A DNA stretch of 64,000 bases from an uncultured Sulfurovum sp. (GTDB lineage: Bacteria > Campylobacterota > Campylobacteria > Campylobacterales > Sulfurovaceae), in contig CAJXJN010000003.1 in NCBI GenBank assembly GCA_913055205.1, positions 1 through 64,000 on the forward strand, given 5' to 3'. Made by a program: the position numbers and the translations under genes. Under the pieces are notes generated by a model. That model had not been told where the DNA came from. It saw nothing but the letters and a program-made list of their open reading frames with translations, and ran no database searches. Shown here piece after piece: positions 1 to 2,059 of this stretch. Positions within the stretch are counted from its first letter, which is position 1, and every line of letters begins with the position of its first letter.

Positions 1-55
1 CCTGCTACCTGCTACCTGCTACCTGCTACCTGCTACCTGCTACCTGCTACCTGCT
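1..55. repeat. Heptanucleotide tandem array (CCTGCTA)n
   Basis: Seven full copies plus six bases of the 7-bp unit CCTGCTA, running from the window edge, so the true length is unknown. On the minus strand the unit reads TAGCAGG. It supplies the last codons (..E-Q-V-A-G-S-R) and the TAG stop of the siroheme decarboxylase gene and continues past it. Because 7 is not a multiple of 3 and the unit contains TAG, a run of three or more units stops every minus-strand frame. Confidence 0.97.
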
Positions 56-1037
56 CTTCCCACACTTCAAACGCATCATCAAAATAAACCAGTCTTTGTT
101 TTTTAAATTCAACAGTAGAATAGAGTTTTCCATACTCTGTCAAACCGCTCTCTTTTGCCATCTCTTCGATGAGGGTATCACACTCTTCTTGGGTTTTGGC
201 ATGCACCATGGCAAAGAGATTATAGGGCCAGTTAGGGTAGCTTGGTCTAAGGTAGCAGTGGCTTACAGCCGAGAAGCTTGCCATCTCTTGACCTATCTCT
301 TCACCTTTATCCTCCGGTACAGCCCAAACACTCATAGCATTGGCACCAAAACCGGCTTTTCTGTGGTTTAAGATAGTTGCGAAACGGCGCATGACACCAC
401 TCTCTTTAAGTGTGTTGGCTATCTCAAAAAACTGTTCATAAGAGAGTCCCAATTTTTCAGTTGCTGCCTTAAATGGTTCTGGAGTTATATCTATATCTTT
501 TTGTAACTCTTTAATTACAGAGATATGTAAAGGAGTAAGTTCTATCTCTTTATGGGCTACCTTTTTGACTTTCTCTTTTTTAGCTCTTTTACCAGTGGTA
601 TCCATCTTTACGGAGATCTTGAACATCTTAAGTGTAGGTAGTGTGATGGCATCATCAGCACCTGTTCTTTCTTTGAGTATCTCAATGGTTTTTTCCAGTC
701 CAAGCTTGGAGTCTGGAGCCACAGCCATCGTAAACCAGATGTTGTAGTCATGGTTACGTAAGTAGTTATGGCTCACCCCTGGATGTTGGTTGATGATATC
801 GGCTGCTTGATCTACTTTGTCTTCAGCCACTTTAAATGCAACCAATGAGGATTTGTAGCCTAATCTTTTAGTATCAAAGATGGCAGAAGTTTGTCGGATG
901 ATTTTTTCATCCTTGAGTTTTTGTACCACAGAGAGTATTTCATCTTCTGTCGTATCCAGTTCTTTGGCTAAAATTTCAAAAGGTCTTTGTGTCATAGGAA
1001 AGGCATTTTGCATTTGAAAGAGTAGTTCGTTTTCCAT
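33..1037 (-). CDS. Fused two-module siroheme decarboxylase (AhbA/AhbB or NirDLGH type)
   Basis: Predicted 334-aa cytoplasmic protein made of two Lrp/AsnC-like modules, each a winged helix followed by an alpha/beta domain (about residues 5-150 and 168-325), joined by a Lys-rich linker near 148-165. This is the architecture of AhbA/AhbB and NirD/L/G/H, which decarboxylate siroheme to didecarboxysiroheme for heme d1 or alternative heme synthesis. Those proteins are often encoded as separate or paired halves; here both are in one chain. Motifs such as VSHNYLRNHDYNIWF and VSHCYLRPSYPNWPYN occupy equivalent places in the two modules. It is divergent from a precorrin-2 dehydrogenase gene, which supplies the siroheme route. 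The C-terminus runs into a heptamer array. Heme d1 versus heme b pathway cannot be decided from the window. A plain AsnC regulator is less likely. Confidence 0.85.
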   Translation of the reverse strand: MENELLFQMQNAFPMTQRPFEILAKELDTTEDEILSVVQKLKDEKIIRQTSAIFDTKRLGYKSSLVAFKVAEDKVDQAADIINQHPGVSHNYLRNHDYNIWFTMAVAPDSKLGLEKTIEILKERTGADDAITLPTLKMFKISVKMDTTGKRAKKEKVKKVAHKEIELTPLHISVIKELQKDIDITPEPFKAATEKLGLSYEQFFEIANTLKESGVMRRFATILNHRKAGFGANAMSVWAVPEDKGEEIGQEMASFSAVSHCYLRPSYPNWPYNLFAMVHAKTQEECDTLIEEMAKESGLTEYGKLYSTVEFKKQRLVYFDDAFEVWEEQVAGSR

Positions 1038-1199: not shown

Positions 1200-1470
1200 T
1201 ATTACGCCAATATGTAAACACTTAAACCGTTAAAAGAACGAGAAGAGGCAATAAGTGGGTGAAAAAAGATGAAGGACTACCCGCAGGTAATTCAGATATT
1301 TTTTCGCTTGCAGATCACCTCTTCTCGTTTTTCCGAAGGGTGTAGTGTTTTCACCCATACTCTGCGTTAGATTTTCTTGAATCCGCTAAGGCGGGTCCTT
1401 CAAAAATCTGTCTTGATTATGAATGAGATCACTGCATTAAAGATTCAGGTGTTTGCATAGTGGCGTAATG
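1200..1470. repeat. MITE-like structured element with terminal inverted repeats
   Basis: Ends 1200-1225 and 1445-1470 are inverted copies (shared blocks attacgcca, tatg, aaacac). Inside are a perfect 12-bp complementary pair (1237-1248 with 1318-1329), a perfect 10-bp pair (1256-1265 with 1348-1357), a gapped pair (1271-1284 with 1391-1401) and a local hairpin at 1369-1409 with CCGC-TAAG-GCGG at its tip. The pairs overlap in A-B-C-A'-B'-C' order, so they cannot all form at once. No transposase is encoded. It could be a non-autonomous element or a structured RNA. Confidence 0.6.
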
Positions 1471-1492: not shown

Positions 1493-2059
1493 ATGTCTTT
1501 TTTTCCTATGTATATGGATATGCAAAATCTTAAAGTTTTAGTAGTTGGCGGTGGGACTATTGCTACTGAAAAACTTGAAAAACTGCTTGATTTTACCAAA
1601 GAGATCACTGTTATTGCAAGCGAAGTAAGTTCAGAAGCTCATATGCTTATTAAAGAACACTGTTTAACGCTTTATCAAAGAGCTTACAAGGTAGGAGATA
1701 TAGAAGGTTTTGATATTGTTATTGTTGCAACAGACACAGTAGAACTTCATAAATCGATTTATGAAGAGTCAAGAGGAAGTAGGATTTTAGTCAATAGTGT
1801 CGACAATACAGACTATTGTGATTTTATATTCCCTTCCTATGTACAAAAGGGAGATCTGACCATTGCTTTTTCTACAGGAGGAGCTTCACCGGCATTTGCG
1901 AAACAGATACGCCGTCATTTTGAAAATATTATCCCGGACAGTGTAGGGGAGTTTCTACAAAAGATGAAGTCTTTACGCTCAGAGATGCCCAAAGGCAAAG
2001 AGCGCATGAAGTATTTTGATGCATTGGTGGAAGAATATTTTAAAAAATATTTTAAATGA
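1493..2059 (+). CDS. Precorrin-2 dehydrogenase / siroheme synthase N-terminal type (Met8-like)
   Basis: A 188-aa protein matching the NAD-binding half of CysG or Met8p: a Rossmann motif VVGGGTIATEK at residues 16-26 and the conserved FSTGGASPAFAKQIRRHFE segment near 127-145. It oxidises precorrin-2 to sirohydrochlorin, and Met8-type proteins can also insert iron to give siroheme. The uroporphyrinogen methyltransferase half is absent, as is usual for stand-alone enzymes of this type. AAAGGAA before ATG fits as a ribosome site. The product would feed the neighbouring siroheme decarboxylase and the siroheme reductase at 16.7 kb. Confidence 0.9.
   Translation: MSFFPMYMDMQNLKVLVVGGGTIATEKLEKLLDFTKEITVIASEVSSEAHMLIKEHCLTLYQRAYKVGDIEGFDIVIVATDTVELHKSIYEESRGSRILVNSVDNTDYCDFIFPSYVQKGDLTIAFSTGGASPAFAKQIRRHFENIIPDSVGEFLQKMKSLRSEMPKGKERMKYFDALVEEYFKKYFK

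Follow-up and report, generated by a model that had tools for sequence, protein, structure and literature searches.

Miniature inverted-repeat transposable elements (MITEs) are usually regarded as decayed transposons with a meaningless interior. Several families of small bacterial repeats bear comparison with the element analyzed here. The nearest published case in the literature searched is RUP of S. pneumoniae together with IS630-Spn1 (PMC2229807, PMC3049150), and a 2007 review treated RUP as the exception, bacterial repeats otherwise lacking a known IS counterpart (PMC2229807). Like our element, RUP is a small non-coding repeat with IS630-like terminal repeats, a TA target and a paired RNA structure that includes the terminal repeats, but it measures 107 bp against 267 bp here, where twin inverted hairpins, a mini-hairpin, strong covariation and, in the wider group, IS5-like ends are found as well. 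Mobilization by an IS, in this case ISNpu3-like elements, through shared terminal repeats has likewise been suggested for the Nezha MITE of cyanobacteria, in a different host (PMC3049150). Correia/NEMIS elements of Neisseria, whose stem-loop transcripts were proposed to be RNase III targets, are also TA-flanked MITEs but differ in host, sequence and architecture, and the CIR elements of Caulobacter and Brucella likewise consist of two long arms and a linker, although no terminal repeats are listed for them and their target duplication is given as unknown (PMC2229807). BOX of pneumococcus is also modular, structured and proliferated, with incomplete forms, but its length varies with its modules from 67 to 637 bp (PMC3049150), compared with a full form of ~270 nt here. 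By layout, the nearest known kind is the paired REPs. REP/BIME of the GTAG and CGTC superfamilies, which have been reported in Sulfurovum NBC37-1, also often occur as opposite pairs with unpaired foot letters and variable stems; their units are 20–40 bp long and either RAYT-linked (GTAG) or without known transposase (CGTC) (PMC3733652), whereas elements of the window type carry ~80-nt hairpins with GCGTTA/TGCCTTG feet within ~270-nt elements that have DDE-type ends and duplications. The family itself was undescribed in the literature searched, which included parts of PMC3733652, PMC2229807, PMC4853749, PMC3049150 and PMC12306157, most subscription papers lying outside it.

The window, a stretch of 64,000 nucleotides from an uncultured Sulfurovum sp. 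(GenBank assembly GCA_913055205.1, contig CAJXJN010000003.1), contains at 1202–1468 a non-autonomous mobile element (MITE) of the IS630 type, 267 bp long, between a nirD/L-like gene and a siroheme gene. A sequence-only reading of this DNA had placed a structured element between tetrapyrrole genes, just 5′ of a precorrin-2 dehydrogenase gene, and both statements held: siroheme-pathway domains were found on both flanking ORFs, namely on the divergent upstream NirD/L-like siroheme decarboxylase gene (33–1037, minus strand; PF17805, E 1.8e-56, and PF22451) and on the downstream precorrin-2 dehydrogenase-like gene (1493–2059, plus strand; PF13241, E 1.5e-28, and PF14824), whose ATG at 1493 is separated from position 1469 by 23 bases. 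No listed ORF of at least 60 aa overlaps the element, which is short, non-coding and framed by terminal repeats, as MITEs are. On the plus strand, it begins after the left TA of the target-site duplication (1200–1201) with the left terminal inverted repeat (1202–1233), which resembles the ends of complete IS630 elements and forms the 5′ strand of the closing stem P1. This is followed by hairpin 1 (P2, 1234–1331), a distant inverted relative of hairpin 2; by the 9-nt mini-hairpin P3 (1332–1340, TCC-GAA-GGG, in the family form CCC-NNN-GGG); by hairpin 2 (P4, 1345–1432), with the conserved motif GCGTTA(S1)..TTGAATT(S2)..AGTCCT(S1′)..TGCCTTG; and by the right terminal inverted repeat (1437–1468), the 3′ strand of P1 identified by inverted-repeat comparison, after which the right copy of the target duplication reads TG in place of TA (1469–1470). 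The terminal inverted repeats, previously put at about 26 bp, proved to be 33 nt long with 82% complementarity (1201–1233 and 1437–1469), their outermost 26 pairs being 97% canonical in 53 copies. The palindrome TTGATACATATCAA in the host promoter region (1153–1166), which from 1159 on is also present in the empty-site alignments described below, is by resemblance what we take to be an FNR/Crp-type box, and TATATT stands at 1189–1194, just upstream of the insertion. Since both lie directly upstream, the element was probably inserted at the transcription start of the siroheme gene, and it probably forms most of the leader of that gene. A promoter and terminator scan of 1030–1510 returned no terminators and two promoter-like sites, versus 1.7 in shuffles. 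Rfam gave no match in the window at gathering score and seven weak, chance-like ones (E 2–9.3), while on six other loci a neighbouring tRNA was the only match.

Copies of the window element were found in 17 of 60 genomes (its own and 59 relatives), a few of them with fragments only. When a copy from the complete single-contig genome G016 was used as query against six genomes, 13 full-length copies were detected in G016, 11 of them with 96–100% identity to the query. Public genomes were also scanned with a pattern, which yielded at least 118 stretches; among the matches listed, 100 had Campylobacterota titles, including Sulfurovum, Nitratifractor and Sulfurospirillum, and 18 titled as other groups were dropped for having no element-length match. 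Plasmid and phage records gave no match to the element DNA. In the loci examined, 79 pairs of IS630-type ends lay 240–285 bases apart, and TA was present on both sides in 53 of these and on one side, with a one-base change on the other, in 22 of the remaining 26; as the inner base of the TA adjoins the conserved TTAC end, it could partly be element sequence. When the flanks of the window copy (TA left, TG right) were joined without the element, they aligned across the junction to the orthologous spacer in 14 of 14 relatives (7 ungapped over 80 bases, the rest with small indels nearby; 19 loci were entered, the other 5 matching other parts of the query), indicating that the insertion belongs to the window lineage and is not a conserved leader. 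At another locus, G002 and G009 have full elements versus a short remnant in G078. Dispersed copies, target duplication and empty sites, the marks of a MITE, were thus all observed.

The segment 1200–1470 folded as RNA with −106.3 kcal/mol (z = −9.5; none of 200 shuffles was equally stable), and its minus strand with −89.6 kcal/mol (z = −7.5). The minimum-energy fold is fully nested and consists of the terminal-repeat closing stem P1, hairpin 1, the mini-hairpin and hairpin 2. We aligned 85 distinct full-length copies, of which 53 were left at 95% redundancy after removal of rows with more than 15 gaps; in the plus-strand consensus of these, 103 pairs comprised 4856 Watson-Crick, 478 G-U, 63 A-C, 52 other and 10 gapped cells. 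Counting as compensated those pairs in which Watson-Crick changes on both sides were seen at least twice, and restricting the count to the 89 pairs that the plus- and minus-strand folds share, we obtained 23/32 for P1, 18/29 for hairpin 1, 0/3 for P3 and 7/25 for hairpin 2. On a tree of 78 copies there were 236 double compensatory events (122 on internal and 114 on terminal branches), in comparison with 5, 5, 9 and 6 when the partners were slid by −2, −1, +1 and +2 columns, respectively. The search for covarying pairs across homologues that had been proposed as a check therefore gave a very strong signal. The sequence-only reading had also named the finding that would reduce the element to a plain transposon, namely dispersed copies with target duplications and no covariation; the copies and duplications were there, but the absence of covariation was not. 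Strong covariation alone, we caution, does not prove a cis-regulatory RNA.

The same reading had been built on complementary blocks in the order A-B-C-A′-B′-C′, and these are indeed present as perfect matches, A (1237–1248) with A′ (1318–1329) over 12 bp, B (1256–1265) with B′ (1348–1357) over 10 bp and C (1271–1277) with C′ (1395–1401) over 7 bp. A hairpin at 1369–1409, thought to compete for C′, also exists, but as the tip of the longer hairpin 1345–1432. What found no support was the idea of competing stems or a pseudoknot: the best fold is fully nested, and a pseudoknot is not needed to account for the blocks. A–A′ is itself part of the nested fold (93% canonical, 9/12 pairs compensated). 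Mutually exclusive pairings were rejected as the preserved structure, B–B′ being 73% and C–C′ 86% canonical, with 1/10 and 1/7 compensated pairs, respectively (53 copies); in the nested fold the bases of B, B′, C and C′ are 96–99% canonical, with 6/9, 1/7, 0/3 and 0/3 compensated pairs. Behind the crossed pairings lies a kinship of the two hairpins, hairpin 2 being similar to hairpin 1 in reverse complement: in G016 copies, one half shares 72.5% identity over ~100 nt with the reverse-complemented other half. Twin inverted related hairpins necessarily yield blocks able to pair between the hairpins. The element goes beyond a simple nested-arm MITE, as had been suggested, but its reading as a switchable RNA for the tetrapyrrole genes is not supported.

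As for the source of mobility, the ends of element copies (e.g. TATTACCGCACCAACAAATAATCTGAA in L231, or TATTACCGCACCAACTAAATACC) and their TA target are those expected of IS630 mobilization, apart from the TG of the window copy. Corresponding ends were found in an IS630 transposon of an Arcobacter/Aliarcobacter plasmid (TATTACTTCACCGATAAATAATCTGAA, L335) and in Pelobacter (TATTACCTCGGCAACTAAATA, L336), the former agreeing with the copies down to AAATAATCTGAA, which occurs also in Sulfurospirillum copies. Three complete IS630 transposons of 1,118–1,138 bp on Arcobacteraceae plasmids have this end type, and that of L335 encodes a DDE_3 domain; their genes begin at most 56 bases from one end and stop no more than ~32 from the other, so the hairpins do not lie inside those transposons. 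In G080, six contig ends with the same end type are joined to a transposase C-terminus, and a distant relative of this transposase (L309) is a DDE_3 protein (E 9.4e-31). DDE_3 (PF13358) was detected in none of the 16 element-bearing genomes tested, including the window's own genome and the complete G016, and the cognate transposase was for this reason sought in relatives; G132 is a partial counter-case, with transposase C-termini and IS630-type ends at three contig edges. Among the assemblies examined, none was found to hold a complete IS630 together with element copies. From the shared ends we infer that an IS630 enzyme would move the element.

Hairpin 2 was found to extend beyond these copies. 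We used a covariance model, R1, built from an alignment (A1) of 34 rows hand-picked from 65 candidates, 27 having been left out as near-duplicates or not chosen and four (L148, L222, L243 and L172) as false regular-expression matches; R1 took the place of regular expressions, which had given too much noise when used to look for further motifs. Rows L156 and L019 are first hairpins reversed, so that R1 is not a pure second-hairpin model, and its E-values are rough and its filters strict. The window copy, itself among the 34 rows, matched at 1350–1429 in hairpin 2 with 93.3 bits and weakly, on the minus strand, at 1263–1303 in hairpin 1 (E 0.012), the inverted pair being weakly detected by R1 in the window as in L263. 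Of the R1 pairs, 19/26 vary on both sides. At E 1e-4, R1 matched 96 of 298 genomes of the order and 33 of 81 genera, each match denoting a hairpin and not an element, with at least 15 matches in seven of the order's genomes; at 1e-7 it matched 59 of 397 phylum genomes, all 59 in the same order, the out-of-order share of the 397 not being given. The hosts of this wider element group are sulfur-oxidising relatives of Campylobacter. Several matches lie in three complete, related genomes of one genus, g75 (G350, G419 and G439), and the phage-contig loci L246–L248 gave none at E 0.1.

Elements with other ends then came to light. Of 21 loci sharing only the hairpin-2 core with the window, 12 were bounded by inverted repeats at 269–286 nt and had the same fold behind other ends, the remaining nine being three shorter forms (165–180 nt), two with inner arms only, two over-long misfits and two with nothing. 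Twenty further places, picked from R1 matches in 12 genomes, all lay between inverted ends, the spans being 263–274 nt in 18 and 244 and 248 nt in the other two, or 268–269 nt if measured from GGGCACC ends; the loose mini-hairpin string was present in 19/20 of these elements. For another 30 loci, a script found ends in 20 (18 at 259–278 nt, one 162-nt single-hairpin element and one spurious), and L381 and L382, which it missed or misread, are 268-nt elements. End types in the group include AAGTACC, TCACTACC, ATACCA, AAGGCTACTCC and the IS5-like GGGCACCTCTAA. The last encloses 265–269 nt in 16 places, with flanks identical for 4 bp in 8 of them, for 1 bp in 4, for 2 bp in 3, and for 3, 5 or 6 bp in none. 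Ends of this kind (6625, 7922) surround, on a viral contig, a transposase gene with DDE_Tnp_1 and DUF772, an arrangement that we take to be that of IS5-family transposases; the longest reading frame of this transposon starts 21 bases outside its ends. The link to IS5 is based on this single viral-contig transposon and the 4-bp duplications, and for the remaining end types a transposase was not found in the loci examined. Given the IS630-like ends with TA and the IS5-like ends with 4-bp duplications, it seems that a single structured cassette moves about with ends belonging to two or more transposase families. It is the interior that is conserved here, its fold being kept though its letters are largely unalignable, with a nearly constant full length and different ends. 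We tentatively propose, while holding the proposal somewhat doubtful, that a transposase-independent twin-hairpin cassette of ~200 nt, preserved in its shape and at a few loop positions, acquired ends from two or more unrelated DDE families and became widespread in the order as a selfish element in its own right, made of RNA (or ssDNA). If this is true, bacterial MITEs can bear a selected structured core independent of the transposase. The window's own genome (G000) also has twin-hairpin relatives with other ends at C35:3036–3114 (L070) and C1:31340–31419 (L003), one ~269 nt and one ~180 nt in size, and L197 (the same contig place as L372) and L201 are 162–168 nt single-hairpin derivatives with AAGTACC ends and hairpin 2 only.

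Taken as a whole, the locus is very probably explained best by an IS630-type MITE with a covarying nested fold that came to lie at a TA in the divergent nirD/L–siroheme spacer. Judging by sequence, the dispersed copies, IS630-like ends, TA flanks, empty site, covarying fold and occurrence of the cassette behind other ends belong to the observed part of this explanation. An IS630-family transposase acting in trans would cut and paste the element; elements in the plus direction within a 5′ untranslated region would fold co-transcriptionally into a closed domain, possibly trimmed by RNase III, that leaves the next ribosome-binding site free, and the insertion would thereby be tolerated. New lineages would be founded only by fold-keeping elements, single copies decaying freely after landing, and the terminal repeats would stay matched partly through conversion of one repeat to the other. 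The last point, that conversion helps to keep the repeats matched, has direct evidence: each of the G016 copies L042 and L087 shows a joint change at the two mismatched positions of the terminal repeats (columns 8 and 14) that brings them into agreement with the opposite repeat. The least certain step is that the cassette works as RNA, for which we see a nearly even chance. A hint comes from orientation, the plus strand being co-directional with the genes in 23 versus 8 tandem settings (23/31; two-sided binomial ~0.01) and the right end being nearer the gene start in 17/20 divergent settings (~0.003; median 22 bases), where 64/85 copies were classified (excluded were 16 copies whose flanks were short, 3 lacking neighbours, 1 located in an ORF and 1 flank duplicate) from crude ORF calls, with kinship ignored and comparisons chosen afterwards. 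A second hint is that terminal-branch changes in hairpin 1 on the plus strand went to G-U 44 times versus 18 to A-C, although this bias is weakened as proof of RNA by its absence in P1 (28:26) and in hairpin 2 (9:13 for shared pairs, and 117:178 when every pair in the folds of the two strands is counted). Among the 11 recent G016 copies, new stem changes freely break pairs (3 to G-U versus 9 to A-C in plus-strand columns), which shows that the host does not hold inserted copies to the fold; this decay and the inverted symmetry would fit a function in propagating the element itself. Our reading is that the fold is maintained since fold-keeping lineages keep spreading, with tolerance in 5′ leaders at the RNA level as the first guess as to how and help in transposition at the DNA level as the second.

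That second way, in which the fold acts as DNA, is a possibility that we take seriously but would not favour: hairpins in single-stranded or cruciform DNA, with each strand bearing one motif, would be recognised in transposition by a protein such as a transposase helper, a recombinase or a host factor, like paired inverted REPs. Inverted-relative hairpins suit DNA better than one RNA, and R1 detected its motif as an inverted pair, with a second hairpin on the opposite strand, in 16/20 of the further elements and 10/18 sources of another set, arranged around the centre with the symmetry of transposon ends. The missing strand bias of P1, the opposite lean of hairpin 2, the decay of fresh copies and a cassette common to elements with different ends also speak for it, but the G-U excess of hairpin 1 and the orientation bias would require another cause, and the ~55-bp elements that consist of terminal repeats only suggest that hairpins may be dispensable for mobility, unless these are internal deletions. 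An explanation without selection, in which mutation itself makes the paired changes as arms template each other's correction and terminal repeats convert, would fit the concerted changes in L042 and L087 and the 139 double versus 34 single pair-keeping changes in P1; however, seven G-U pairs stay G-U in 40–52 of the 53 copies, and all 53 have a C-A mismatch at columns 77/90, both of which count against correction alone since it would give perfect palindromes, and elements with different ends repeatedly combine conserved loop letters with variable stems, so that we consider it improbable. A metabolite or attenuation riboswitch, acting as a cis leader of the siroheme gene, could draw on the short distance to the ATG and on the alternative pairings, but copies occur in many gene settings, and together with the spacer empty in every relative aligned, the poorly kept crossed pairings and the negative Rfam result at gathering score this leaves it hardly any credit, and it was rejected. 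Should the preferred reading of an IS630-type MITE with a structured core be true, its many divergent natural copies make RNA versus DNA action of the core directly testable.

An attC-like reading of GCGTTAGAT was dropped on finding the complementary core missing from the partner arm. The terminal-repeat-only elements of ~55 bp are L108, L109, L110, L261 and L271, with ends equal to those of full copies in G021 and close to them in G016 and G022, and lone single terminal repeats are also present, often upstream of genes. The element end motif was found in 31/61 genomes of the genus, in comparison with 6 matches in total for a reversed-pattern control. Finally, the 3′ end of the NirD/L-like gene coincides with a perfect tandem array, at positions 1–55 of the window, in which the 7-bp unit CCTGCTA is repeated 7.9 times.
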